A DNA stretch of 64,000 nt, taken from the NCBI RefSeq assembly GCF_014640155.1, contig NZ_BMGK01000002.1:10589-74588 (forward strand), in the 5' to 3' direction. Position numbers and translations under genes: made by a program. Below are positions 12,798-24,810 of the stretch, one piece after another. The number at the start of each line of letters is the position of its first letter. The stretch's first letter is position 1. The DNA is from Planktosalinus lacus (lineage in GTDB: Bacteria; Bacteroidota; Bacteroidia; Flavobacteriales; Flavobacteriaceae). Under the pieces are notes generated by a model, which saw only the letters and a program-made list of their open reading frames with translations, ran no database searches and was not told the origin of the DNA.

Positions 12798-13235
12798 TCA
12801 ACCGACCTTAATAGTCGTTTCCATACTGATTTTTGAATGTATGGAATTTGAAATCAAACAATGGTGTTCACTTTTATCAAGAATGCGTTCTGCACGTTCT
12901 TCTTTTTCGGTTGAAGGAATGGTGAGCGTGGGATACAGATGAATTTCTGTGATTTGAAACTTACCGTCTTTTTTAGCTAGTATTCCTTTGGCATTGCAAT
13001 CAAAGGCTATAAACTCCAGTTTTGAGTTTTCGGCAATTGCCAGAAACGTAGTCATCAGGCAACTGCAAACAGAGGCCACAAACAAATGCTCGGGCGACCA
13101 TATTCCGGGCATTCCTTTGGGAAACTCCGGAGGGGTTGCCACTTCAATTTTGGTATTTAATACCGGCGAACTCATGGACCCTTTTCGGTCGTGTTGCCAG
13201 TTTAAATCTACAGTATATTCGTGTGCTTCAGTCAT
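12798..13235 (-). CDS. OsmC/Ohr family peroxide-reducing protein
   Basis: The 145 residues fit the OsmC fold: PEHLFVASVCSCLMTTFLAI carries the first redox cysteine region, and HHCLISNSI carries the second, peroxidatic-pair cysteine. Family members reduce organic hydroperoxides with thiol donors; some small OsmC-like proteins have other or unknown substrates. A palindrome ATGAC-AAGA-GTCAG sits at 13297-13310, exactly 22 nt before TAACTTTG, which puts it in the same predicted regulon as the hemoglobin and cbb3 oxidase operons. Confidence 0.85.
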   Translation of the reverse strand: MTEAHEYTVDLNWQHDRKGSMSSPVLNTKIEVATPPEFPKGMPGIWSPEHLFVASVCSCLMTTFLAIAENSKLEFIAFDCNAKGILAKKDGKFQITEIHLYPTLTIPSTEKEERAERILDKSEHHCLISNSIHSKISMETTIKVG

Positions 13236-13266: not shown

Positions 13267-13310
13267 CAAAGTTAGTTTGATAGATGCAAACAAACTATGA
13301 CAAGAGTCAG
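13267..13310 (-). promoter_or_regulatory. Crp/Fnr-type site and promoter for osmC
   Basis: The site is ATGACAAGAGTCAG (13297-13310 as written on the plus strand). The -7 element TAACTTTG (minus strand, 13267-13274) follows after exactly 22 nt, placing the site near -41, the class II activator position. ATG 13235 is 31 nt further. The same half-sites and spacing occur at 14488-14531 and 24767-24810. Confidence 0.7.
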
Positions 13311-13321
13311 TAATGGCTTAA

Positions 13322-13699
13322 CTATCGTGCTTCAAATAAGGTCAGGTAAAGATGGGAAGCCATTTTACGGGCATTGTTTTTGGCGCGATTGGCATTTTCG
13401 CCTTCAAACAGGGAGTCGATGGTTTCAAACCAAAGATTGATCCAATTCCCGAAATGCTCCATTTGAAGTGCATTGTGGTATTTTTGGTCTAATTTGATAT
13501 GCGCTTTTGCAGGATTGCCTTTGAATTTGGCTTTAAAAAACAGATTGCTTTCCCAAAAGTCTGTGAGTTTTTCCAAATGTGCATCCCAGTCAGTAATGGT
13601 GTCATTGAAAAAATGGCCTATTTCCGCACTCTTTTGCACTTTGGCATAGAACGAAGAAACAAGTAAATAAACATCTTCTCTGTTTTTTATGTCTTGCAT
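13322..13699 (-). CDS. Group III truncated hemoglobin
   Basis: The 125-residue start at ATG 13699 gives MQDIKNREDVYLLVSSFYAK, which fits the family N-terminus. A TTG five codons upstream would overlap the previous stop. Features include the IGHFF segment, DFWESNLFF and KAHIKLDQKYHNALQMEHFG, with the proximal heme-ligand histidine in the LDQKYHNALQ-LEHF region as in group III (trHbP) globins. These proteins bind O2 or NO, and some act in NO or peroxide detoxification. The gene is last in a three-gene unit behind a Crp/Fnr-type site. Confidence 0.88.
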   Translation of the reverse strand: MQDIKNREDVYLLVSSFYAKVQKSAEIGHFFNDTITDWDAHLEKLTDFWESNLFFKAKFKGNPAKAHIKLDQKYHNALQMEHFGNWINLWFETIDSLFEGENANRAKNNARKMASHLYLTLFEAR

Positions 13700-13706
13700 G
13701 GACTGT

Positions 13707-14153
13707 TTATTCAAAATATTGAAAGTAAACCGGTATGTGTTGGTTTAAGTTGGCTACTGCTTTTTGAGCTGTTTCCGGGTCTTTTGTCAGATCTTCAAAG
13801 AGTGCTTTCATAGGGTACAGAAAGTTGTGCAATTGGTCGTGAGATTCACCTTTCATAGTGCACTTTTCAAATACATATGCAAATTCGGTTTCCAGTTGGG
13901 TTTTTAAAGTAGTGTAATCATTACTTTCCTCCTCGAGGAACGTTGTAACATGCTTTTGCATTGCTTGAACACCTTCGGTTGTTTCAGCATTTGCTTGCCA
14001 TTTAGAGCCGTTGTTGTGTTTTAAATTGAGATGCCCTTCGGGACTACCTGTATGCAGTTCAGAGCTTTCAGGTGTAGCGGTTTTTTTATCACTGTCTGCA
14101 CAAGACACCAAAGTAAAACACACAAGCAGGGTTGACAATATATAGCTTTTCAT
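13707..14153 (-). CDS. Small lipoprotein of unknown function, hemoglobin operon
   Basis: The start is ATG 14153, giving MKSYILSTLLVCFTLVSC with a lipobox (LVSC). A long ORF reading on to 14483 runs through the preceding gene in another frame and is rejected. The mature ~130 residues are polar and helical, with conserved-looking pairs HLNLKHNNGSKWQAN and EKCTMKGESHDQLHNFL. The histidines, cysteine and methionine of the latter could bind heme or metal, which is only a guess. It ends 7 nt before the hemoglobin start. Confidence 0.75.
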   Translation of the reverse strand: MKSYILSTLLVCFTLVSCADSDKKTATPESSELHTGSPEGHLNLKHNNGSKWQANAETTEGVQAMQKHVTTFLEEESNDYTTLKTQLETEFAYVFEKCTMKGESHDQLHNFLYPMKALFEDLTKDPETAQKAVANLNQHIPVYFQYFE

Positions 14154-14164
14154 AATAATATTTT

Positions 14165-14458
14165 TTAAAGGTAAAGCATTGTTAAATGAAATACAATAAG
14201 CACCACACTGATTAGCAAACTCAACACCAGGGAATTGTAAACAAACTTCGCTTTGAGCTGAGCCAGCACACTGGCATTGTACCACATGGCCACCGCTACT
14301 ACTAAAAAGAGCTGGACCATTTCTGCTGCAGAGGTTCCACTCATCAATATTAACATAGCCGCAATTGAACCGATACAGCTGGAAGCAATGACTCCTAAAA
14401 CTGCATAGGTATAGTACATTTCCTGAAATTCTGTGAGACCTTTTTGATACAAATTCAT
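14165..14458 (-). CDS. Small membrane protein of unknown function
   Basis: The 97 residues form about three transmembrane helices: YTYAVLGVIASSCIGSIAAM, VQLFLVVAVAMWY, and LVLSLLISVVLIVFHLTMLYL. I do not recognise a named family. First gene of a unit that continues with the lipoprotein (12 nt gap) and the hemoglobin. The promoter carries a near-perfect Crp/Fnr-type palindrome. The Crp/Fnr regulator gene ends 80 nt upstream. Confidence 0.75.
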   Translation of the reverse strand: MNLYQKGLTEFQEMYYTYAVLGVIASSCIGSIAAMLILMSGTSAAEMVQLFLVVAVAMWYNASVLAQLKAKFVYNSLVLSLLISVVLIVFHLTMLYL

Positions 14459-14487
14459 TATTCACATTGGTTTTTTGGTTCAATGTG

Positions 14488-14531
14488 TAAAGTTAGAATC
14501 TGTACAAGTTTCTATTTATGACCTGAGTCAT
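14488..14531 (-). promoter_or_regulatory. Crp/Fnr-type site and promoter for the membrane protein-lipoprotein-hemoglobin operon
   Basis: ATGAC-CTGA-GTCAT at 14518-14531 has perfect half-sites, extended by one base pair on each side. TAACTTTA (minus strand, 14488-14495) follows after exactly 22 nt, and ATG 14458 is 29 nt below that. The palindrome lies between this operon and the regulator gene, as expected if that regulator controls its neighbour. Confidence 0.72.
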
Positions 14532-14538
14532 AACCCGG

Positions 14539-15135
14539 CTAGCGGAATAATTTTCTGTTTATTATTTTGAGTTCCCCCTTTTTTTCCAGTGACTTGGTAG
14601 CCCTGATTACTGTTTCAACCCTTAAACCGGTCAAATCTGCAATTTGCTGACGCGTGATATCCACCTGAAAAGAAAACGGAGTATCGAGATGGTGGACATA
14701 CTTCTTGAGGTAATCGAGTATTCTTAAAATGCGGTGTTCCGGTTCTTGGGAGGAAAGTTCAGTCGCCATGATGGCTTTGTAATACAGTCGGCTGGCAAGC
14801 GCTTTTGTAATTGAGAGATGTTCATCAGGATGTGCTTTGAGCAATTCCAGGAAATTGTCTTTTGAAACCCTTAAAACCTCAGCATCTGAAAGCGCCTCAG
14901 CATGTGCAGGATATTTCACATCTGCAAACAAAGGAGGTTCACCAAAACTTTGCCCTTTAAAGAAAATGCCCTGGATAAACTCTTTTCCGTCATCGTTGAA
15001 GTTGTTCATTTTCACTTCACCGCTCAGGATTTGAAAATAACACAAGGCCGGTTGCCCTTCAGAAAAGATTTGATCTCCTTTTAAAAAAGTTAACTTCTCT
15101 GCTTCAAATTTATATAAAATGTCCTCTGCAATCAT
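14539..15135 (-). CDS. Crp/Fnr family transcription regulator
   Basis: The 198-residue protein has a cyclic-nucleotide-binding-type beta-roll (residues ~10-115, with GDQIFSEGQPALCYFQILSG), a long dimer helix, and a C-terminal winged helix whose recognition helix is ITRQQIADLTGLRVETVIRA. The E...R pair of VETVIR matches positions that read TGA half-sites in Fnr/Crp proteins. There is a single cysteine in the sensor part, so an Fnr-type iron-sulfur cluster is unlikely; the ligand is unknown. Its start overlaps the stop of the upstream thioredoxin gene by 4 nt, so both are cotranscribed. The three ATGACnnnnGTCAT-like sites in this window are candidate targets. Confidence 0.88.
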   Translation of the reverse strand: MIAEDILYKFEAEKLTFLKGDQIFSEGQPALCYFQILSGEVKMNNFNDDGKEFIQGIFFKGQSFGEPPLFADVKYPAHAEALSDAEVLRVSKDNFLELLKAHPDEHLSITKALASRLYYKAIMATELSSQEPEHRILRILDYLKKYVHHLDTPFSFQVDITRQQIADLTGLRVETVIRATKSLEKKGELKIINRKLFR

Positions 15136-15434
15136 TTACTATGCTGTTGGATAATTTGTATCAACTCGTGTTTTTGCAATACCCCCGATTGCCGCCACAA
15201 TTGTTTTCCATCTCTGAACAATATCATAGTGGGTACTCCCCTAACCTGATACTGAGCCGCCAGTGGCTGATTTTTATCGACATCGATTTTAACAATTTTA
15301 ATGGCTTCTCCCAGTTCTGATTTCACGTCAGTTAAGATGGGTGCTAACATTTTACAAGGTCCACACCAGGTGGCAAAAAAGTCAACCAAAACAGGTTTCT
15401 CATCCTTGATTATCTCACTAAATTTTGATTTCAT
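15132..15434 (-). CDS. Thioredoxin
   Basis: The start is ATG 15434 (MKSKFSEIIKDEKPVLVDFF). A longer ORF to 15488 would include the TATCTTTG promoter element at 15460-15467 on the minus strand, so it is not used. The 100-residue product carries the WCGPCKM active site and the cis-proline segment GVPTMILF. It reduces protein disulfides in the cytoplasm. The stop and the ATG of the Crp/Fnr gene overlap (ATGA), tying thiol reduction to this regulatory unit. Confidence 0.9.
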   Translation of the reverse strand: MKSKFSEIIKDEKPVLVDFFATWCGPCKMLAPILTDVKSELGEAIKIVKIDVDKNQPLAAQYQVRGVPTMILFRDGKQLWRQSGVLQKHELIQIIQQHSK

Positions 15435-15529
15435 ATCGTTACATTTTTCTTCCTCTACACAAAGATACAACTCCCTTTTAAAACGCATCAGGAAGTCTTA
15501 AAAATACACAAAAAAACTATCTTTGCAGC

Positions 15530-17200
15530 ATGAAAGAAACGGCATTCCAAACTTTTAAAAAACCAATTGCAGGCATTCCCATTCCTGAAAAATTCACCTT
15601 CCCTTTTTATTATACACCACACCCCTTGTCAAAGATTGCAGCCGAGGAACTTCAGGATTATTTGAGCCTTCAAAAAGAGTTTCAACACAACTTTGGTTTA
15701 AACCCAAATGAGCGGGGACCCGCAATAGGAAAAATGTTTGGGGTCTTGGTTTGTCAAAACAATGAAGGAGTGTTGGGCTATTTATGGGCCTTTTCAGGGA
15801 AACTGGCCGATGCCAACCATCACCAAAGATTTGTGCCTCCGGTGTTTGATATGCTGACAGAAACAGGTTTTTTTAAACTGGAAGAAGAAGTGCTCAATCA
15901 ATATAACCGCGAAATTGAACAGCTTGAGCACTCTGCAGCCTACCTTCAGGCGTTGGAAAACAAAGAAAATGTAACCCTGGATGCTGAAAAGGATCTGGAG
16001 AAACAAAAAAAACGCATCAGGAAACTTAAAAAAGAGCGTGACCTTAAAAGAGCTGAAGCCAACACTGCACTCAATCAAACTGACTTGGATACACTGGAAA
16101 CTCAGTTGAGTGAGGAAAGCAAAAAAGAGAGTATTTTGTTGAAGAAAATGACTAAGTACTGGAAGTTTCAAATAGAAGCCGCCTCAAAAACACTTGATGC
16201 TTTTAGATTGCATATTAAAGATCTTAAAGAAAAGAGAAAAAAGAAATCTGCCGCCCTGCAGCAAAAGCTTTTTGATAACTACAAGTTTTTAAACCAACAA
16301 GGCACATTGAAAAGTATTGGTGAGATTTTTGACGACAATCCGCCTGCCGGAGCCGGCGAATGTGCTGCTCCCAAGTTGCTGCACTACGCCTTTAAACATG
16401 GACTAAAACCAATTGCCATGGCTGAGTTTTGGTGGGGTGAGTCACCCAAATCTGAAGTGCGCAAACACAAACAATTCTATCCGGCTTGTAAAAGCAAATG
16501 TGAACCTATCTTGATGACCCACATGCTGGATGGGCTTAACCTGGAAGCCAATCCATTTCACTCCAATCCCGCTAAAGGCAAGGACTTGAAAATTGTGTTT
16601 GAAGACGCTTCTATAGTTGTCATCAACAAACCCGCAGAGTTTTTAACAGTTCCGGGGAAACTTTTATACGATTCGGTTTATACCCGGGTTAAAGCCCTTT
16701 ACCCCAAAGCCACCGGTCCTTTAATTGTCCACCGATTGGATATGTCAACTTCAGGGTTGCTGTTGATTGCCAAAGATGAAGAGACCTATAAAAATCTACA
16801 GAAACAGTTTATTAAACGAACAGTTGAAAAAAGATATGTAGCGCTGCTGGATGGAATTCCAGAACAAACAGAAGGCTTGATAGATTTACCGTTACGTGTG
16901 GATCTGGATGACCGCCCCAGGCAGTTGGTTTGTTATGAACACGGTAAAAACGCACAAACCCGTTGGGAAGTACTCTCTACAAACAACAATCAGACACGGG
17001 TTTATTTCTATCCCATTACAGGGCGCACCCATCAATTGCGTGTACATGCAGCACATCAATTGGGTTTAAATACACCCATTGTTGGGGATGATCTTTACGG
17101 TAGTAAAGCAAACCGGCTTCACCTGCACGCTGAAAGTATCACTTTTTCACACCCCCAAACCGGGTTGTTATTTACAATTACTGAAGAAGCACCCTTTTAA
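15530..17200 (+). CDS. RluA family RNA pseudouridine synthase with long coiled-coil N-terminal half
   Basis: The C-terminal ~215 residues are a pseudouridine synthase: the catalytic motif HRLDMSTSGLLLIAKD with its aspartate, VINKPAEFLTVPG before it, and GRTHQLRVHAAH after. The first ~340 residues are an extra region with charged coiled-coil helices (about residues 115-250, rich in K and E) and a conserved stretch GIPIPEKFTFPFYYTPHPLS. Family enzymes isomerise uridine in rRNA or tRNA; the target here is unknown. A TATCTTTG element at 15518-15525 ends only 4 nt before the ATG, implying an almost leaderless mRNA. Confidence 0.88.
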   Translation: MKETAFQTFKKPIAGIPIPEKFTFPFYYTPHPLSKIAAEELQDYLSLQKEFQHNFGLNPNERGPAIGKMFGVLVCQNNEGVLGYLWAFSGKLADANHHQRFVPPVFDMLTETGFFKLEEEVLNQYNREIEQLEHSAAYLQALENKENVTLDAEKDLEKQKKRIRKLKKERDLKRAEANTALNQTDLDTLETQLSEESKKESILLKKMTKYWKFQIEAASKTLDAFRLHIKDLKEKRKKKSAALQQKLFDNYKFLNQQGTLKSIGEIFDDNPPAGAGECAAPKLLHYAFKHGLKPIAMAEFWWGESPKSEVRKHKQFYPACKSKCEPILMTHMLDGLNLEANPFHSNPAKGKDLKIVFEDASIVVINKPAEFLTVPGKLLYDSVYTRVKALYPKATGPLIVHRLDMSTSGLLLIAKDEETYKNLQKQFIKRTVEKRYVALLDGIPEQTEGLIDLPLRVDLDDRPRQLVCYEHGKNAQTRWEVLSTNNNQTRVYFYPITGRTHQLRVHAAHQLGLNTPIVGDDLYGSKANRLHLHAESITFSHPQTGLLFTITEEAPF

Positions 17201-17206
17201 ATACTT

Positions 17207-18472
17207 TTAATTAAAACGATCATAAGCTGCTTTCTCCAACGCTTCACGGTGGTCAGGGTGTGCCAGTGAAATCAATGCTTTAGCACGCTGTTTTAGGTTT
17301 TTACCATACAGGTCAACCACACCATATTCGGTAGCAATATAATGCACGTGGGCTCTGGTAGTTGTTACCCCGGCTCCCTCTTTTAAGAAAGGAACAATTT
17401 TAGAAATTCCTTTATGTGTGATTGATGGCATGGCAATAATTGGTTTTCCGCCTTCTGAAAGGGCTGCACCTCTAATGAAATCCATCTGACCACCTACTCC
17501 GCTGTATTGCATTTTTCCAATAGTGTCTGCACAAACCTGGCCCGTGATATCAATTTCAATCGCGCTGTTAATGGCCGTTACTTTAGGGTTTCTTCTAATA
17601 ATAGCCGTGTCGTTAGTATAAGCAGCTTCCTTGAAATGCACGATGGGGTTATCGTCCATAAAATCATAGAGCTTTTGAGAGCCAATGGCAAAACAGGTGA
17701 CGAGTTTCCCTCTTTTAATCACTTTATCTTCACCGGTAATCACCCCTGATTCAATGAGTGGAAGCACTCCGTCTGAAAACATTTCGGTATGGATCCCCAG
17801 GCGTTTGTGATTGGTAAGGTTTGACAGCACCACATTTGGAATACCTCCAATGCCCATTTGCAAAGTTGCTCCGTCTTCCACAAGCTGCGCTACATGGTAA
17901 CCAATTTGTTTTTCAATTTCGGTGGGTTCAGAGGTCTCTACGCTGTGAATGGGTTCATCGACCCACACTGCAGCATTGATATTGTTTTTATGGATAATTC
18001 CATCGCCGTGTGTTCGCGGTACTTTAGGATTTACCTGAGCAATGACAATTTTTGCTGTTTGTATTGCAGTGATTGTAACATCAATTGAAGTCCCCAGCGA
18101 GCAATAGCCATGCTTATCAGGTGGTGAAACCTGAATAAGTGCTACATCGAGTGGTAGAATATTGCGTTTGAATAACAAGTGTAATTCACTTAAAAATATG
18201 GGCGTATAGTCTCCGCGTCTGGTGTTAATGGCTTTTCTGACATTGCCTGCCACAAAACAACTGTTGGTAGTAAATGCGTCACTGTATGGTTCACGGGTAT
18301 ACATAGCGTCACCTTCGGTGTGCATTTGAACGATTTCTATATTTTGAAGGTTTTTATAGTTTTCACATAAGGTATTGATAAGGAATTTAGGTGTCATAGC
18401 AGCCCCTTGAAAAAACACTCTGTTGTTTGATTTCACTAAGGATACGGCTTCTTCAGCTGAGATATAATTCAT
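17207..18472 (-). CDS. Acetyl-CoA hydrolase/transferase family CoA-transferase
   Basis: The 421-residue protein belongs to the class I CoA-transferases of the 4-hydroxybutyrate or succinyl-CoA:acetate type. Motifs include VSPPDKHGYCSLGTSID, the oxyanion segment LQMGIGGIPNVVL, the catalytic glutamate in GIHTEMFSDG, and HVHYIATEYGVVDLYGKN. It would move CoA between short-chain acids, often to make or use acetate or butyrate. The nearest gene on the same strand, the TauE/SafE protein, is 37 nt upstream, so it may be read from the cbb3 operon. Substrate cannot be settled from sequence. Confidence 0.85.
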   Translation of the reverse strand: MNYISAEEAVSLVKSNNRVFFQGAAMTPKFLINTLCENYKNLQNIEIVQMHTEGDAMYTREPYSDAFTTNSCFVAGNVRKAINTRRGDYTPIFLSELHLLFKRNILPLDVALIQVSPPDKHGYCSLGTSIDVTITAIQTAKIVIAQVNPKVPRTHGDGIIHKNNINAAVWVDEPIHSVETSEPTEIEKQIGYHVAQLVEDGATLQMGIGGIPNVVLSNLTNHKRLGIHTEMFSDGVLPLIESGVITGEDKVIKRGKLVTCFAIGSQKLYDFMDDNPIVHFKEAAYTNDTAIIRRNPKVTAINSAIEIDITGQVCADTIGKMQYSGVGGQMDFIRGAALSEGGKPIIAMPSITHKGISKIVPFLKEGAGVTTTRAHVHYIATEYGVVDLYGKNLKQRAKALISLAHPDHREALEKAAYDRFN

Positions 18473-18509
18473 TGTATTGTTAATTTTAAGTTGTTAGGTA
18501 AATTTTGAT

Positions 18510-19214
18510 TTAAACGTGGCATTCAATTTTTGCGTCTACTTGTTGTGTCATTGGTTTTGGTGAGACGTAAGGAATTCCCAGTCCCATTCCCCGTAAGATA
18601 AATAAAATTCCGATAATGACCACGAAAACCGGAATTGCTTTACGGATTTTCTGGCGGTTGATGCCTTTTAAATATGAACTGGCGTAAATGGATATTGTCA
18701 TCAGAGGAATGGTTCCCAATCCAAAAAACAACATATACAAGCTGCTTTGAGTTAATGAACCTGCTGCTATCGCTGCAAAAACGGCTATATAAACCAATCC
18801 GCAAGGTAAAAAGCCATTTAAAAAACCAATGGTAAGAAATGTGTCGGCCGTTTTCTTCTTAAAAGAAGCGCCCATCTTTTGTTTCAGTTTATTGACAAAC
18901 CGGTAAAAGAATTGAGAAACCCGGGTGTTTTGAAACGGTTTGAGTGGCAGCACCACTACAAGTATCATTAAAACCCCCACTGCAATGGAAAGTTGTTGCT
19001 GCAGTCCAAAAAGTGAAAAGCTTTTGCCAAGCAGACCAAACACGAGGCCAATGAGCGCATAGGCGGTCAGCCTTCCTAAATGATAACTGCTTGTTTGAAC
19101 AATTTTTTTTACCGGCTTTTTATGATCAACCGGAAGCATAAAAGCAATGGGGCCACACATACCCACACAGTGTAAACTTCCAAAAAGTCCCAATAAAAAG
19201 GCCGAGAGTAACAT
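18510..19214 (-). CDS. TauE/SafE-type membrane protein of the cbb3 oxidase cluster
   Basis: The start is ATG 19214 (MLLSAFLLGLFGSLHCVGMCGP); the ORF upstream runs into the ccoH gene in another frame. The 234 residues form about six membrane helices. The first contains an HCxxxCGP motif and the middle has NGFLPCGLVYIAVFAA. In Bacteroidota this family sits at the end of cco operons and is suspected of helping copper or thiol handling for oxidase assembly, which is inference from context. Its start lies 2 nt after the ccoH stop. Confidence 0.82.
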   Translation of the reverse strand: MLLSAFLLGLFGSLHCVGMCGPIAFMLPVDHKKPVKKIVQTSSYHLGRLTAYALIGLVFGLLGKSFSLFGLQQQLSIAVGVLMILVVVLPLKPFQNTRVSQFFYRFVNKLKQKMGASFKKKTADTFLTIGFLNGFLPCGLVYIAVFAAIAAGSLTQSSLYMLFFGLGTIPLMTISIYASSYLKGINRQKIRKAIPVFVVIIGILFILRGMGLGIPYVSPKPMTQQVDAKIECHV

Positions 19215-19216
19215 GG

Positions 19217-19663
19217 TTAAAAGTTGATTTTTTCTTTTGCTATATAGGCTTTGCCTTCCATTTCCCAGTAAAGACTTATATCCCAACGACCCTGAACCAA
19301 CTCACTTTCAGGAATAAGCATTTGATGATTTGAAAGTTGTAGTTCTTTTTCAAAATCAAAGGCTTTATTGTTTACCCTGTAGAAGGAAACACTCCCGTTT
19401 TGAATGTTTGCACTCCAGGCTTCAGGAATGTTTATAAGCACTCCATTGGCTGCTTTTTCTATGCTTACTTTTTCAGTTAGCTGCGCTGCATTGTTACGGG
19501 CATCCAATTCATCCTGAAAACCGATTTCCTGCTTGTAATAATCTTCAATTACCAGGTCATGTTCAAATTCTTTACTTGTGGTCATTGTAATTACAAAATA
19601 CAAAATGAATGCTATAAACAATGCAATTGCAATAACGATACCTGTACCCCAGTTTATTTTCAT
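19217..19663 (-). CDS. ccoH: FixH/CcoH-like cbb3 oxidase assembly protein
   Basis: The 148-residue protein has one N-terminal membrane helix (WGTGIVIAIALFIAFILYFVI) and a periplasmic domain starting with DLVIEDYYKQEIGFQDELDA, the conserved FixH segment. CcoH binds early assembly intermediates of the cbb3 oxidase. It lies between ccoG (51 nt) and the SafE gene (2 nt), in the usual order. Confidence 0.85.
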   Translation of the reverse strand: MKINWGTGIVIAIALFIAFILYFVITMTTSKEFEHDLVIEDYYKQEIGFQDELDARNNAAQLTEKVSIEKAANGVLINIPEAWSANIQNGSVSFYRVNNKAFDFEKELQLSNHQMLIPESELVQGRWDISLYWEMEGKAYIAKEKINF

Positions 19664-19714
19664 GATGAAGAGTTCTTTTTGATGCTTATGAATATTATTC
19701 TAAATGTATTGAAC

Positions 19715-21130
19715 TTAATTAAAACTTCGTGGCCCCAGGAAGTTTGTACTGGTGGTTTCAATGAGTTGTCCGTTACTGTAAACTCCAATTTCTACCTTGT
19801 TTTTATGCCCTTGAAGTGCAGCGCGATTTAATTCTATAAATAAAGACCCTTCTACCAGGTCTTGCGGCGGAACTACAACTTCATTTTGCGCAACAAATTT
19901 GATTGTGCCTTTATGTGAAAGTAATTTTAATTCAATGTCTGAATATTCATTACTGGTTTTATTGATCAGTTTATAAGTATACACATTACTAACCATATTG
20001 TCTTCTTTTAACTCATACAATTGCCCGGGTAAGCGCAGTACTACGGCCTCTACATCACTTCGCAAGAACAACATTCCAATCAATACCCCAATCAGGATAA
20101 CCAAAACGGCCACATAACCTTTCATACGCGGAGTAAATTCAAAAGGTTTTTTCTTAACGATATTCTCTTCGCTGGCATAGCGTATCAATCCTTTTGGGTA
20201 ATTTACAGATTCCATGATACTATCGCAAGCATCCATACAGGCGGTACAGTTAACACACTCCAGCTGGGTGCCATTTCTGATATCAATCCCTGTGGGACAA
20301 ACGTGTACACATTGAAAGCAATCTATACAATCGCCGTGACCCAGGGCTTGTCTGTCTTCGTTTTTACGGAATTTCTTTCTGCCTTCTTCGCCTTCACCCC
20401 GTTTGTGATCATAGGCTACGACAATTGATTTGGTGTCCAGCAACACCCCTTGCAAGCGCCCATATGGACAAGCAATAATGCATACCTGCTCCCGAAACCA
20501 CGCAAAAATAAAGTAGAACACTCCTGTGAAAATCAGTAAACCTATAAAGGTACTCAGGTGCTCAAGCGGTCCTTCTATTATGTAAAGCAATAAACGATCA
20601 CTTCCTATTAAATAGGCCAGAAACACATTTGCAATGATGAATGATATGATAAAAAATATAATCCATTTCAATAAACGCTTTCTGATTTTCTCAGCATTCC
20701 AAGGCATTTTAGCCAGGCGAATTTGTTTTCCCCTATCACCTTCAATGGCATATTCAATACGCCTGAAAACCATCTCCATAAATATCGTTTGCGGACAAAT
20801 CCATCCACAAAATATCCTTCCGAAAGCAACGGTAAAAAGTGTGATAAAAACCACTCCAATAATCATGGAAAGGACAAATAGATAAAAGTCCTGTGGCCAG
20901 AAGGGGAAACCAAATACATTGAACTTCCGCTCCAGAATATTGAATAACAAAAACTGATTGCCTCCCACTTTAATGAATGGAGACGCAATGAAAAATATCA
21001 GTAAAAAGTAGCTAACATATTTTCTGTATTCATAGAACTTTCCACTGGGCTTTTTGGGGAAAAGCCACTTTCGTTTACCTTCTTCATCAATGGTATTGAT
21101 GGAGTCGCGAAAGTTTTCTTGATTTTCCAT
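19715..21130 (-). CDS. ccoG: CcoG: ferredoxin-type cupric reductase for cbb3 oxidase
   Basis: The 471-residue protein has several membrane helices (residues ~40-55, 85-110, 155-210, 335-355). NosR/NapH-like cysteine motifs (FCGWICPQTIFMEM, CIIACPYGRLQGVL) are followed by two 4Fe-4S ferredoxin motifs (CIDCFQCVHVCP and CVNCTACMDAC). The C-terminal ~110 residues are a periplasmic Ig-like domain. CcoG reduces Cu(II) to Cu(I) for insertion into CcoN. Follows ccoP by 21 nt. Confidence 0.92.
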   Translation of the reverse strand: MENQENFRDSINTIDEEGKRKWLFPKKPSGKFYEYRKYVSYFLLIFFIASPFIKVGGNQFLLFNILERKFNVFGFPFWPQDFYLFVLSMIIGVVFITLFTVAFGRIFCGWICPQTIFMEMVFRRIEYAIEGDRGKQIRLAKMPWNAEKIRKRLLKWIIFFIISFIIANVFLAYLIGSDRLLLYIIEGPLEHLSTFIGLLIFTGVFYFIFAWFREQVCIIACPYGRLQGVLLDTKSIVVAYDHKRGEGEEGRKKFRKNEDRQALGHGDCIDCFQCVHVCPTGIDIRNGTQLECVNCTACMDACDSIMESVNYPKGLIRYASEENIVKKKPFEFTPRMKGYVAVLVILIGVLIGMLFLRSDVEAVVLRLPGQLYELKEDNMVSNVYTYKLINKTSNEYSDIELKLLSHKGTIKFVAQNEVVVPPQDLVEGSLFIELNRAALQGHKNKVEIGVYSNGQLIETTSTNFLGPRSFN

Positions 21131-21151
21131 AACGTTTTGAGGCTTTCGGGT

Positions 21152-22117
21152 TTATTGTTCTATTTCAACGTCGTCTTCCAGTTGTTCTTCTGTAAGCTCG
21201 GTTTGTTCAACCTTATCAGCCGCTTCTTCCAGTTTTTCCGGCGCTTTTTCTACATACAAATCACCTTCAGCTTCTTTAGCGTCGGGAGGGTTGGTGCCCT
21301 GGAAGGTTTTGATATAACTTGCCACCTGTGCTATTTGAAGTGGTTTTAAATCATTTTTCCAGGCAATCATTCCTTTTCCGGGACGACCCCCTTCAGAAAT
21401 AACTTCATACATATTACTCAAACTACCACCTGCAATCCAATAATCATCTGTCAGGTTTGGACCAATTCCTCCTCCACCATCGGCTCTGTGACAGGCCACA
21501 CAGTTGGTTTCGAAAATGGCTTTACCGGCTTTTAAATCTTCAGCATCGGTAAGTAACTCCACCGTACTGGCATCTACCAGACCCTTTGCAGTTTTACGAT
21601 ATTCTTCAATTTCTTTCTCTGCTACCGCCAGCTCTCGCTGATATTCTTCTTCTTGGGTTGGTCCATCAAAAACGTGGTAACGCACCATATAAACTACCGC
21701 AAAAATTATGGTCGCATAAAAACCATATAACCACCAGGGGGGCAGGTTGTTATCCAACTCTTTAATGCCGTCATAGTTATGATCAAGGATGATTTCAGCT
21801 TCTGTTTTGGCTTTTTTCTTTCCAACCAGTTTTCTATAAATAGTGTAAACCCAAGCAAATCTATTTGCTTCAGCTACAGCTTCTTTTTCTAAATAACGTG
21901 ATTGTGCTTCTGCGTCCAGCGAGTGAAACAAAATGCGTTGCAATGAATTAACACTTATTTCAATTGCAACCATAAAGAGTATGATGGCAATCCAGACCAA
22001 AATTAAAATTGGGGTTTCCATGAGTGCCCACTGTCCCTCTGTTCCTGAAATTGCTTCAATCAAAAACAAAGAAAGGGTCGCGATGATTAAAATTCTAAAA
22101 ACTGCTATTGATTTCAT
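21152..22117 (-). CDS. ccoP: cbb3-type cytochrome c oxidase subunit III (CcoP), one-heme form
   Basis: The 321-residue subunit has two N-terminal membrane helices, then the CcoP N-domain segment YDGIKELDNNLPPWWLYGF with a third helix, and a cytochrome c domain with a single heme site NCVACHRADG and distal methionine GKGMIAW. Proteobacterial CcoP proteins carry two hemes; I find only one CxxCH here. An acidic tail (EQLEDDVEIEQ) follows. It passes electrons to the CcoNO core. Overlaps ccoQ by 4 nt. Confidence 0.92.
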   Translation of the reverse strand: MKSIAVFRILIIATLSLFLIEAISGTEGQWALMETPILILVWIAIILFMVAIEISVNSLQRILFHSLDAEAQSRYLEKEAVAEANRFAWVYTIYRKLVGKKKAKTEAEIILDHNYDGIKELDNNLPPWWLYGFYATIIFAVVYMVRYHVFDGPTQEEEYQRELAVAEKEIEEYRKTAKGLVDASTVELLTDAEDLKAGKAIFETNCVACHRADGGGGIGPNLTDDYWIAGGSLSNMYEVISEGGRPGKGMIAWKNDLKPLQIAQVASYIKTFQGTNPPDAKEAEGDLYVEKAPEKLEEAADKVEQTELTEEQLEDDVEIEQ

Positions 22118-22308
22118 TGGTTCGTGGTGTTTTCGTCCTCTTCATTTTCCAGAGGAATGTTACTTACTTGATCGATATAATTCTTTTTTGCGGTAAAAAC
22201 CCAAATAAAAAGGATTGCAAAAAAGATGAAAAAAATGAGTAGTGAGATAATGGGATACACTTCTATCCCATCAATCGATTCCATATGTCCTTTGATATAC
22301 TTTAACAT
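22114..22308 (-). CDS. ccoQ: CcoQ-like small membrane subunit
   Basis: The 64-residue protein has one membrane helix (IISLLIFFIFFAILFIWVF) followed by a basic then acidic tail, as in CcoQ/FixQ subunits. Its place between ccoNO and ccoP is also right. Its stop overlaps the ccoP start (ATGA). CcoQ stabilises the oxidase complex. The call rests mostly on size, topology and position. Confidence 0.75.
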   Translation of the reverse strand: MLKYIKGHMESIDGIEVYPIISLLIFFIFFAILFIWVFTAKKNYIDQVSNIPLENEEDENTTNQ

Positions 22309-22314
22309 AATAAC

Positions 22315-24519
22315 TTAGTTTTCAGTGTTTGTAACTTCTTCTCCACCTGACACTTTAATATCGGTTCCCAAGCGTTGCAGATATGCGATTACTGCAACTA
22401 CTTCTCGGTTTTTCATTTCTGTAAACTCAATCCCGTTTTCCTGAGCATATTGTTTTTCAGCTTCATATACCCGTGCAAATTCTGGGTCGCTGTAAAGGTT
22501 TTCTTCAATTTGCGTTCCCTGCTCAAGCATCCATTCCTGAGCACGTGCAATTTGTTCCTCGGTATAAGGTACGCCCAGATTTACCATTACCTCCATTTTT
22601 CGCTCAGTTTTTGACTTATCAAGTTCGTTATTGATCAGCCACTTATAGCTTGGCATAATGGAGCCCGGCGAAGTACTTTGAGGGTCATAGAAGTGGTTGA
22701 AATGCCAGCTGTCTGAATATTTTCCACCCACGCGCAACAGGTCAGGACCTGTGCGTTTACTTCCCCAAAGGAAGGGGTGGTCATACACAAACTCTCCTGC
22801 TTTTGCATATTCGCCATTGTAGCGTTCAGTTTCACTTCTGAAAGGACGCACCATTTGGGAGTGACATCCCACACAACCTTCACGGATATATAAATCCCGT
22901 CCTTCTAACTCAAGCGGCGTATACGGTTCTACACTGGTAATTGTAGGTATGTTTGATTTCACCACCAGGGTAGGAACAATCTGGACAATTCCTCCAATCA
23001 AAATGGCAACAGTAGCAAGGATTGTTAATTGTACCGGTCTTCTTTCCAGCCAGGTGTGGTATGCTTCACCGGCAACACGTTTTTTAGTCACTCTTTCAAG
23101 GGCAATCGCTTCAGCAAGCTCATCTGCTACCGGAGTTCCTTGTCTTACAGTCTTCACGATATTGTAGAGCATAATGAATACCCCTAGGATGTATAAGCTT
23201 CCACCTATAGCACGCATCCAGTACATAGGCATAATTTCAACTACAGTTTCCATAAAGTTTCCATACACCAATGTCCCGTCCGGGTTGAATTGTTTCCACA
23301 TAGAAGCCTGGACAAAACCGGCTACATACATTGGCAAGGTATAAATGATGATTCCAAGAGTACCAATCCAGAAGTGGAAATTAGCCAGACCGACAGAAAA
23401 GAGTTTGGTTTTAAATATTTTAGGTATCAACCAGTAAATCATACCGAAAGTCAGGAAGCCATTCCACGCAAGTGCACCCACGTGAACGTGTGCAATGATC
23501 CAGTCAGTAAAGTGGGCAATTGCATTCACATTCTTGAGGGACAACATAGGCCCTTCAAAAGTAGCCATACCATAACCGGTGATGGCAACCACCATGAATT
23601 TCAATGTTGGGTCTGTGCGTACTTTATCCCAGGCACCCCTTAAAGTGAGTAAACCGTTAATCATACCACCCCAGGATGGGGCTAAGAGCATGATTGAAAA
23701 CGCAACTCCTAAACTTTGAGCCCAGGCAGGCAATGATGTATATAGAAGGTGGTGAGGACCTGCCCAGATATAAATGAAAATTAAAGACCAAAAGTGAACA
23801 ATCGATAAACGATAGGAATACACCGGCCTGTTGGCAATTTTAGGCACGTAATAGTACATCAACCCTAAAAAGGGTGTGGTTAAGAAAAAGGCAACCGCAT
23901 TATGACCATACCACCATTGTACCAAGGCATCCTGCACACCGGCATAGACTGAGTAACTTTTTAAACCATCTACTGGCAGTGCTAAACTGTTAAAGATATG
24001 AAGTACAGCCACCGTTACAAAAGTTGCCAGATAAAACCAAATAGCTACATACAGGTGGCGTTGTCTTCTGCGAAGGATGGTTCCAATCATATTGATTCCA
24101 AATGCAACCCAAACTACAGCAATTGCAATATCAATAGGCCATTCCAGTTCTGCATATTCTTTAGAAGAAGTATAACCTAAGGGCAACGTGATTGCGGCCG
24201 CCACAATAATAAATTGCCAACCCCAAAAGTTTATGTTACTGAGCCAATCACTGAACATTCTGGCTTTGAGAAGACGTTGCAAAGAATAATAAACTCCCGC
24301 AAAAATAGCATTCCCCACAAATGCAAAAATCACTGCATTGGTGTGCAATGGACGCAAGCGACCAAAGCTCAGCCAGGAAATACCATCGGTCATGTTTGGA
24401 AACATAAACATAAATGCCAGTAAGAGCCCTACTGACATTCCCACCACTCCCCATAATAGCGTGGCATAAATAAACTTCTTTACGATTTTATTATCGTAAT
24501 AAAATTGCTGTAATTCCAT
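22315..24519 (-). CDS. ccoN: Fused cbb3-type cytochrome c oxidase subunits I and II (CcoN-CcoO)
   Basis: The 734-residue fusion starts with CcoN (about residues 1-470). It has twelve membrane helices with heme and copper-B histidines, visible in RLRPLHTNAVIF, WWYGHNAVAFFLTTP, AGPHHLLYTSLP and DWIIAHVHVGALAWNG. CcoO follows after a loop (~490-734): one membrane helix, then the heme c motif EGCVGCHSQMVRPF. Fusion of N and O is usual in Bacteroidota. The enzyme reduces O2 with high affinity at the end of the respiratory chain. Second gene of the operon, 2 nt after ccoS. Confidence 0.95.
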   Translation of the reverse strand: MELQQFYYDNKIVKKFIYATLLWGVVGMSVGLLLAFMFMFPNMTDGISWLSFGRLRPLHTNAVIFAFVGNAIFAGVYYSLQRLLKARMFSDWLSNINFWGWQFIIVAAAITLPLGYTSSKEYAELEWPIDIAIAVVWVAFGINMIGTILRRRQRHLYVAIWFYLATFVTVAVLHIFNSLALPVDGLKSYSVYAGVQDALVQWWYGHNAVAFFLTTPFLGLMYYYVPKIANRPVYSYRLSIVHFWSLIFIYIWAGPHHLLYTSLPAWAQSLGVAFSIMLLAPSWGGMINGLLTLRGAWDKVRTDPTLKFMVVAITGYGMATFEGPMLSLKNVNAIAHFTDWIIAHVHVGALAWNGFLTFGMIYWLIPKIFKTKLFSVGLANFHFWIGTLGIIIYTLPMYVAGFVQASMWKQFNPDGTLVYGNFMETVVEIMPMYWMRAIGGSLYILGVFIMLYNIVKTVRQGTPVADELAEAIALERVTKKRVAGEAYHTWLERRPVQLTILATVAILIGGIVQIVPTLVVKSNIPTITSVEPYTPLELEGRDLYIREGCVGCHSQMVRPFRSETERYNGEYAKAGEFVYDHPFLWGSKRTGPDLLRVGGKYSDSWHFNHFYDPQSTSPGSIMPSYKWLINNELDKSKTERKMEVMVNLGVPYTEEQIARAQEWMLEQGTQIEENLYSDPEFARVYEAEKQYAQENGIEFTEMKNREVVAVIAYLQRLGTDIKVSGGEEVTNTEN

Positions 24520-24521
24520 AA

Positions 24522-24749
24522 TTAGAAATCTGATTTATTAGTTGTTGATTTATTTTTAGTAGAAGTATTCTGGTGTTCTTTTTTTTCATCTGAAGGTTTG
24601 TCCTTAACTACCTCATCTTCAAAAAGCATACGCACTGAAGGGGTGTAAGTATCATCATATTGACCTTTTTTTAAACTATAAATGAAAATTGCGAAGAAAA
24701 CAATAGCGACTAGAGTACTGATAATCAAGGTCAAGTAAATAACGTTCAT
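24522..24749 (-). CDS. ccoS: CcoS, cbb3 oxidase assembly protein
   Basis: The 75-residue protein starts at ATG 24749 (MNVIYLTLIISTLVAIVFF), one helix followed by a SLKKGQYDDTYTPSVRMLFED segment typical of CcoS. The longer ORF to 24803 would run over the -7 element at 24767-24774. CcoS is needed for cofactor insertion into CcoN. It is the first gene of the operon, since the usual ccoI copper ATPase gene is not upstream. Confidence 0.88.
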   Translation of the reverse strand: MNVIYLTLIISTLVAIVFFAIFIYSLKKGQYDDTYTPSVRMLFEDEVVKDKPSDEKKEHQNTSTKNKSTTNKSDF

Positions 24750-24766
24750 CTGGTATAAGTTTCTTT

Positions 24767-24810
24767 CAAAAGTAATTGTACTCCATTCTTCAAAAAATGA
24801 CAATTGTCAT
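24767..24810 (-). promoter_or_regulatory. Crp/Fnr-type site and promoter for the cbb3 oxidase operon
   Basis: ATGACAATTGTCAT at 24797-24810 is a perfect 14-bp palindrome. TACTTTTG (24767-24774, minus strand) follows after exactly 22 nt and matches TAnnTTTG. ATG 24749 is 17 nt further. Same half-site and spacing as at 13267-13310 and 14488-14531. Control of cbb3 oxidases by Fnr-type regulators is well known in other bacteria. Confidence 0.8.

Follow-up and report, generated by a model that had tools for sequence, protein, structure and literature searches.

The window analysed here, a stretch of 64,000 nt from Planktosalinus lacus (NZ_BMGK01000002.1), contains three promoters in which a Crp/Fnr-type palindrome lies 22 nt before a -7 type box, upstream of an osmC-like gene, a membrane protein/lipoprotein/haemoglobin operon and a cbb3 oxidase operon. 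This promoter layout is real, precise and family-wide in the Flavobacteriaceae. We consider it probable that it serves two overlapping regulons with one promoter geometry, under two regulators: A, a Crp/Fnr protein encoded beside the haemoglobin operon, and B, a receiver-Crp/Fnr fusion encoded on another contig. The haemoglobin operon would belong with A and the cbb3 operon most likely with B. If this is true, the cbb3 oxidase would be governed by a REC-Crp (receiver-Crp) two-component switch, distinct from a nitric oxide (NO)-type Crp/Fnr regulator that uses a similar box.

Three composite promoters in the window

The preliminary description of this DNA had placed three palindromes and three boxes on the minus strand, each pair separated by 22 nt, and we confirmed all of these positions and spacers. 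The six elements are as follows, with site classes and log-likelihood ratios (LLR) as defined below.

13297..13310, minus strand: palindrome CTGACTCTTGTCAT, before osmC; one mismatch to ATGAC-N4-GTCAT (CTGAC for ATGAC)
13267..13274, minus strand: -7 type box TAACTTTG, 22 nt past the osmC palindrome
14518..14531, minus strand: palindrome ATGACTCAGGTCAT, then AAA, before the membrane/lipoprotein/haemoglobin operon; A-type (LLR +10.4)
14488..14495, minus strand: -7 type box TAACTTTA, 22 nt past the haemoglobin-operon palindrome
24797..24810, minus strand: palindrome ATGACAATTGTCAT, before the cbb3 operon; B-type (LLR -13.0)
24767..24774, minus strand: -7 type box TACTTTTG, 22 nt past the cbb3 palindrome

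The palindrome ATGAC-N4-GTCAT, held in that description to be common to all three promoters, is perfect at 14518 and 24797, and the osmC site departs from it. A distance of 22 nt after the 14-mer palindrome equals N23 after its TGAY-N4-RTCA core, and both conventions are used here. Bare palindromes with up to one mismatch are by themselves only mildly unusual in the window (5 against 1.83 expected; 3 of 100 shuffles reach 5). The degenerate composite TGAY-N4-RTCA-N23-TAnnTTT, which was picked post hoc with the sites already known, occurs three times against 0.025 expected under a first-order Markov model, and none of 200 simulated windows reaches three. Across the other spacings from 9 to 39, the window holds one match at 17, one at 37 and no more. 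It is the shared spacing, and not the palindromes alone, that carries the case against chance in the window.

The geometry across the family and in the own genome

We scanned Flavobacteriaceae genomes, first 100 with free spacing between 7 and 37 nt and then 397 with fixed spacing; the control, both in the family and in the 2.97-Mb genome of P. lacus itself, was the pattern read backwards. The 100 genomes gave 94 matches to the perfect palindrome followed by the box, with 77 at 22 nt, 4 at 21, 6 at 23 and 7 elsewhere. The fixed composite (perfect palindrome, 22 nt and box) gave 552 matches, in 222 of the 397 genomes, and the control columns hold nine.

A scan of the own genome for the palindrome 22 nt from the box, proposed in the preliminary description as a check, returned few sites at non-random positions. 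The perfect palindrome occurs at six places (two in the reversed-pattern control), four of which have a TAnnTTT at 22 nt: the haemoglobin operon, ccoS, hemN (named by sequence) and the cytochrome c gene that leads to nosZ, where NosZ is identified by NCBIfam TIGR04246 and an RIC repair protein is encoded farther along. Pairing TGAY-N4-RTCA with a TAnnTTTG at any distance from 9 to 39 gives 20 places. Half of these, 10, have a distance of 23, a concentration with a binomial p of 1.7e-10 against uniform spacing; the 10 include one, L048, that is part of a different Crp/Fnr motif.

That palindromes and AT-rich boxes were aligned by chance might be argued from the window, where palindromes free of a spacing constraint are barely enriched. 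We reject this explanation, whose probability is extremely small, on the failure of all 200 simulations to yield three composites, the 552 family matches against about nine in controls, and the spacing peak seen both in family genomes and around the B genes.

In Flavobacterium psychrophilum, the TAnnTTTG box spans -12 to -5 (PMC9723704). Since the spacing is 22 nt, these coordinates would put the palindrome's centre at -41.5, close to the -41 proposed earlier, and the composites would then form a class II activator arrangement. The Bacteroidota promoter has the form TTG-N19-TAnnTTTG, hence the position of its -33 box. In the 100-genome set, the third base of the would-be TTG is G in only 4 of 77 sites, within a T-rich stretch. 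The 22-nt composites lack a -33 box, as class II activation would have it.

A collection of family loci contains 84 distinct 22-nt composites, of which 81 have a downstream open reading frame (ORF) and 79 were scanned. Their products include FixS (11), Radical SAM proteins (9, hemN-like by sequence), cytochrome c (9), Usp (5), Thioredoxin_9 (5), S30AE (4), Cu-oxidase (4, NirK-like), PfkB (3) and PFL (2), a set that resembles the known targets of FNR-type regulators. These low-oxygen and NO-type genes agree with the earlier suggestion that control by low oxygen or NO is likely. Oxygen limitation raises cbb3 and haem-synthesis genes in F. psychrophilum, in a report whose main text names neither Crp nor Fnr (PMC9723704). 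If the reading is true, a palindrome, 22 nt and TAnnTTTG without a -33 box would allow low-oxygen and NO promoters to be named from sequence in many Flavobacteriaceae. The open-licence literature searched, with subscription papers mostly outside the search, yielded no statement of such a promoter rule for Bacteroidota, no paper that links an Fnr-type box of Bacteroidota to TAnnTTTG and no description of a REC-Crp protein as an oxygen regulator.

Regulators that track the sites

The own genome encodes four cNMP-domain proteins, namely A, B and two others, which are taken up below with a second palindrome family. A third type, C, is found in relatives, an FNR-like protein of 233 aa that carries an N-terminal CxxC in the one copy looked at in detail and, by a strict pattern, in 18 of 37 C loci; it scores 105.8 bits against NCBIfam Fnr, under the cut-off of 228. 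Type C is not among the four cNMP proteins of the own genome and was not found there at 1e-50, and both same-genus genomes searched carry A and B and lack C. Relatives also encode a further Crp/Fnr group, in open frames of ~240-280 aa that are about 29-36% identical to type C.

Across the 397 genomes, site presence tracks B and C, and A adds nothing. At least one site is present in 7 of the 78 genomes with none of the three regulators, 1 of 5 with A only, 27 of 42 with B only and 66 of 113 with C only; for combinations, the counts are 91 of 103 (B and C), 3 of 14 (A and C), 17 of 29 (A and B) and 10 of 13 (all three). Fisher tests of site presence give 3e-10 for B and 7e-13 for C. With one genome per genus, the values are 4e-7 for B, 2e-9 for C, and 0.37 and 0.74 for A.

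These counts bear on the claim, made in the preliminary description, of one regulon under the adjacent Crp/Fnr protein, in which A would activate all three promoters. In its favour, A lies next to one of the sites, in relatives as well as here, its recognition helix has E..[IL]R-type residues as in B and C, and the palindrome cores are identical. Co-occurrence, tried in 100 and then in 397 genomes, gave A no support as the sole regulator: without B and C, A makes no difference (1/5 against 7/78, p 0.41), nor does it in the presence of B without C (17/29 against 27/42, p 0.80), and in the presence of C without B its association is negative (3/14 against 66/113, p 0.01). The cbb3 site, moreover, scores -13 as an A-type site and so is another variant than the haemoglobin site. 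The single regulon under A is therefore not supported, and control of all three promoters by A alone is unlikely. How such proteins are read differs between studies: in one report, Crp/Fnr homologues of a Flavobacteriales metagenome-assembled genome (MAG) were predicted to be MalR-like and carbon-sensing (PMC8510549).

Regulator A and its site variant

As described earlier, the Crp/Fnr gene at 14539-15135 adjoins the 14518 site, and it does so in relatives too. Among 32 loci where a script could place the A gene, a palindrome lies within ~260 bp downstream of A in 12, each time 22 or 23 nt before a box; in others it lies just upstream of A. Among the matches listed, the palindrome stands before or between the genes for A, the small membrane protein and the truncated haemoglobin in most loci. 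The end of a thioredoxin gene (window 15132-15488) overlaps the start of A by four bases, and at least three relatives (L280, L281, L286) likewise have a thioredoxin gene ahead of A.

We compared two sets of sites. The A-adjacent set comprises 17 hand-picked sites, palindromes without a box and some others having been excluded, and an enlarged set of 24 restores seven of them; the B set comprises 68 sites (spacing 21-23) from 18 B loci, several of them in A-carrying genomes. Their consensus sequences are approximately ATGAY-TYAR-RTCAT-AAA and [AC]TGAY-N4-RTCAT-WTTT, respectively. A naive-Bayes score over eight positions, evaluated by leave-one-out, was positive for A-type and negative for B-type sites and separated 17 from 68 sites with an area under the curve (AUC) of 1.0, a result that may reflect descent, as most of the A-adjacent sites used for training represent a single orthologous promoter; separation was still complete with 24 against 68. 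On this scale the haemoglobin site reaches +10.4, or +9.9 when excluded from the training, and the site of the nosZ operon +8.3; the ccoS site stands at -13.0 and two Usp sites at -5.6 and -11.4. The osmC (-2.9) and hemN (-1.7) sites are assigned to neither class.

Because the training sites largely represent one orthologous promoter, we scanned a named genome collection with the A variant, ATGAYTNNRRTCATAAA-N19-TAnnTTTG, which matched at least 118 stretches. Among the matches listed, A orthologues (at least 38% identity) are encoded in 54 of 118 stretches, in 51 of them within 1.5 kb of the match and in 35 within 150 bp. As a control we took 20 symmetric loci of 8 kb, drawn around ordinary sites from genomes that carry A; none contained A and two contained C. 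A less balanced control of 87 loci, in which most of 57 have only ~200 bases upstream and the other 30 have ~1.5 kb on each side, also contained none with A and two with C. We take 77 of 80 stretch names among the matches listed to be Bacteroidota, many of them Chryseobacterium and Tenacibaculum; the other three are Eubacterium, Ornithinibacillus and a MAG labelled Algicola. The ORFs downstream that fit seed families, again among the matches listed, encode truncated haemoglobin (14), A itself (7), the membrane protein (5), the nos cytochrome c (5), another nos protein (2), Hmp (2), NorB (1) and RIC (1).

It is this linkage scan, and not a test of palindromes within the set, that carries the case for A. 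Position and site variant tie A to the membrane-protein/haemoglobin operon, and the predicted targets point to an NO-type role. FNR, an iron-sulfur oxygen sensor, has four cysteines; A has a single one, at residue 32, in agreement with the earlier remark that it lacks an Fnr-type cysteine set. Like DNR and NnrR, A has genes of NO metabolism as predicted targets or neighbours (truncated haemoglobin, nosZ, RIC, Hmp and NorB). Its similarity to known regulators is general (DNR, E 1.9e-12; CRP, 4.4e-13), and no NCBIfam model matches it above the cut-off.

A and B might instead be interchangeable on all sites, the two classes being traces of the haemoglobin promoter's descent. The overlapping cores, the position of osmC and hemN in neither class, and a test with untrained sites that is not significant are compatible with this. 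The nosZ-operon promoter, which belongs to a different gene, scores +8.3 as A-type, and the variant also occurs at Hmp, NorB, nos and A promoters elsewhere, making interchangeability very unlikely.

Regulator B and the adjacent PAS kinase gene

Regulator B is a 349-aa protein (G000:C5:114.7-115.7 kb) with an N-terminal Response_reg domain (8.1e-29) followed by cNMP_binding and HTH_Crp_2 domains. In the own genome, its gene is preceded by one for a 409-aa PAS histidine kinase, and what we take, from its sequence, to be a ccoI-type copper ATPase gene lies ~3 kb away. We sampled 20 B loci in 19 genomes, chosen partly as the best B matches and partly as places with previously known sites. B is present in all 20; a strict pattern called the kinase in 17 and the two together in 14. 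In 18 of the 20 loci, B has a 22-nt site no farther than 2 kb away, and in 15 such a site is within 50 bases of one or the other end of the gene. Pooled, the loci hold 65 sites at 22 nt, whereas every other distance between 9 and 39 has 0-4. Among the matches listed, many of these sites precede Usp-like genes, and ccoI- or ccoN-like genes are nearby in several.

The kinase's PAS domain finds its best solved-structure matches in the haem-PAS sensors DosP (4.9e-15) and FixL (9.2e-12) of the Protein Data Bank (PDB). All 17 kinases have a His aligned with the DosP 'PAH', and 14 of the 17, the own kinase among them, have the Arg of 'GxGR'; we take these residues to be the axial and distal haem residues, and a His at that position is also possible in generic PAS domains. 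By its closest matches and by these two residues, the own kinase is a predicted FixL-like haem-PAS protein, differing from DosP and FixL in being encoded beside a REC-Crp protein.

Since B tracks the sites family-wide and the sites cluster around it, and since the core and spacing are common to all three window sites, B alone might read them all, leaving A a bystander. Two results make this very improbable: the A-variant scan reaches A genes in 54 of 118 stretches among the matches listed, and the haemoglobin site, itself left out, scores +9.9 as A-type.

A proposed mechanism and its closest relatives

Binding, phosphorylation and signals enter as the inferred parts of the explanation that follows. 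A Crp/Fnr-type dimer centred at -41.5, in the place of the -33 box, would recruit the Bacteroidota RNA polymerase to TAnnTTTG, and A and B, with their similar recognition helices, would share this geometry. A would read ATGAY-TNNR-RTCATAAA and activate the membrane/lipoprotein/haemoglobin operon and the nosZ operon, with nitric oxide as its probable signal. When oxygen falls, the PAS kinase encoded beside B would phosphorylate B, which would read [AC]TGAY-N4-RTCAT-WTTT and activate the cbb3 operon and Usp genes at low oxygen. The FixL-FixJ-FixK cascade would thus be shortened through a receiver-Crp/Fnr fusion. The osmC and hemN sites could be read by either A or B. Whether this extends to the Flavobacteriaceae at large, with a haem-PAS kinase acting directly on a receiver-Crp/Fnr fusion placed at -41.5 in the promoters of cbb3 and Usp genes, and a second, unfused Crp/Fnr protein running NO defence from a variant box at the same position, is in our judgement evenly balanced.

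Several observations weigh against this explanation. Besides the possible effect of descent on the site classes, the downstream palindrome is absent in 20 of the 32 A loci, and, among the matches listed, 64 of the 118 scan stretches are without A and only 37 of 112 ORFs downstream of A-type matches fit the seed families. In the untrained test, perfect palindromes are A-like in 3 of 14 cases in A genomes against 6 of 63 in others (p 0.35). Shared lifestyle may inflate the co-occurrence of sites with B and C, since many of the genomes that lack all three regulators are small. Sites occur in 7 of the 78 genomes in which no A, B or C was found, six of these seven genomes being at most 90% complete. 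B is not adjacent to the window's cbb3 operon, and its own locus lacks any 22-nt site in the own genome and in the same-genus genome G263. Three of the 17 kinases lack the haem-pocket Arg.

By analogy, B and A would work like FixL-FixJ-FixK plus a DNR-type NO regulator. FixJ has a NarL/LuxR-type output domain and FixK is a stand-alone Crp/Fnr protein; by its domains B is neither, its output being cNMP_binding plus HTH_Crp_2 and its N-terminus a Response_reg domain. The rhizobial FixL-FixJ-FixK and hFixL-FxkR-FixK systems control cbb3 in response to low oxygen by means of a PAS kinase and of a Crp/Fnr activator that binds TTGAT-N4-ATCAA (PMC7888657). They share with the present system the cbb3 target under low oxygen, the kinase, the Crp/Fnr protein and the 5-N4-5 palindrome, and differ in that here receiver and Crp/Fnr form one polypeptide, the outer letters are those of ATGAC, and a Bacteroidota box is combined with a putative -41.5 position.

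Escherichia coli FNR is known for the same target set and class II placement, and the type C protein of relatives matches NCBIfam Fnr below its cut-off; the difference is that C is absent from the own genome and that A has a single cysteine. DNR and NnrR, also of the Crp/Fnr type, govern NO and denitrification genes through an FNR-box-like site, the DNR consensus being CTTGATnnnnATCAAG (PMC1274295). A is likewise a Crp/Fnr protein, with NO and denitrification genes as predicted targets; its similarity to DNR is only general, and its site variant is ATGAYTNNRRTCATAAA. The HcpR site, TTGACnnnnGTCAA, has the inner letters found here and differs in the outer letters (PMC1274295).

Genes downstream of the three promoters

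The genes that follow the three promoters, together with that of A, are listed here.

12798..13235, minus strand: osmC-like gene (Pfam OsmC, 1.9e-18)
14165..14458, minus strand: 97-aa membrane protein, first in the haemoglobin operon; membrane nature judged from sequence; no match in Pfam or NCBIfam
13707..14153, minus strand: small putative lipoprotein, from its N-terminus as read from sequence; no match in Pfam or NCBIfam
13322..13714, minus strand: group III truncated haemoglobin (PDB 2ig3, E 8.1e-12); no match in a Pfam search
14539..15135, minus strand: regulator A, a 198-aa Crp/Fnr protein and probable reader of the 14518 site
24522..24749, minus strand: ccoS, which opens the cbb3 operon (Pfam FixS, 6.9e-18)
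22315..24519, minus strand: ccoN-ccoO fusion, a 734-aa frame with COX1 and FixO domains
21152..22117, minus strand: ccoP
18510..21130, minus strand: remaining cco run (ORFs)
18510-19286, minus strand: DsbD_2-type protein (DsbD_2, 6.9e-54)

Relatives of the 97-aa membrane protein adjoin A in other genomes. Two frames of the remaining cco run are presumably ccoG-like (19715-21130) and ccoH-like (19217-19663). No ccoI was spotted among the cco genes of the window; the genome has a ccoI-like gene on another contig, close to B.

Further sites in the own genome

Two perfect palindromes lack the exact layout. One (L006) lies within a coding frame, and the other (L005, C3:320622-320635) stands before a citrate synthase gene, named by sequence, and is followed after 23 nt by an imperfect box, TATCTTCG. 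One-mismatch matches at 22 nt precede two Usp genes, a CBS-domain gene and a second OsmC-like gene (C8:23852-23893, L028), all named by sequence, and further such matches look like chance. Two composite matches were set aside, L013 as lying inside a coding region and L012 as belonging to another Crp/Fnr motif. The region C2:141-151.6 kb (L172) combines two 22-nt sites with genes for hemN, Usp, cytochrome c, a fasciclin-like protein, Sec-dependent nosZ, nos accessory proteins and RIC.

A second palindrome family, GTRAC-N4-GTYAC, shows the same spacing from TAnnTTT beside two further Crp/Fnr genes. It occurs at L012/L055 (C16:3.4-4.0 kb), L025/L054 (C7:100.5-101.1 kb), L024 (C7:90.8 kb) and L027 (C8:20.6 kb). 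The sites beside the Crp/Fnr genes precede genes that presumably encode DUF2892-like and TauE/SafE-like proteins, and others precede presumed genes for a sulfide:quinone oxidoreductase-like FAD oxidoreductase and a DoxX-like protein. The sites possibly mark a sulfur-related regulon of the same geometry. The motif resembles, and is closer than the ATGAC sites to, the consensus GTAACnnnnGTTAC that HcpR2 uses in Bacteroides among others (PMC1274295).

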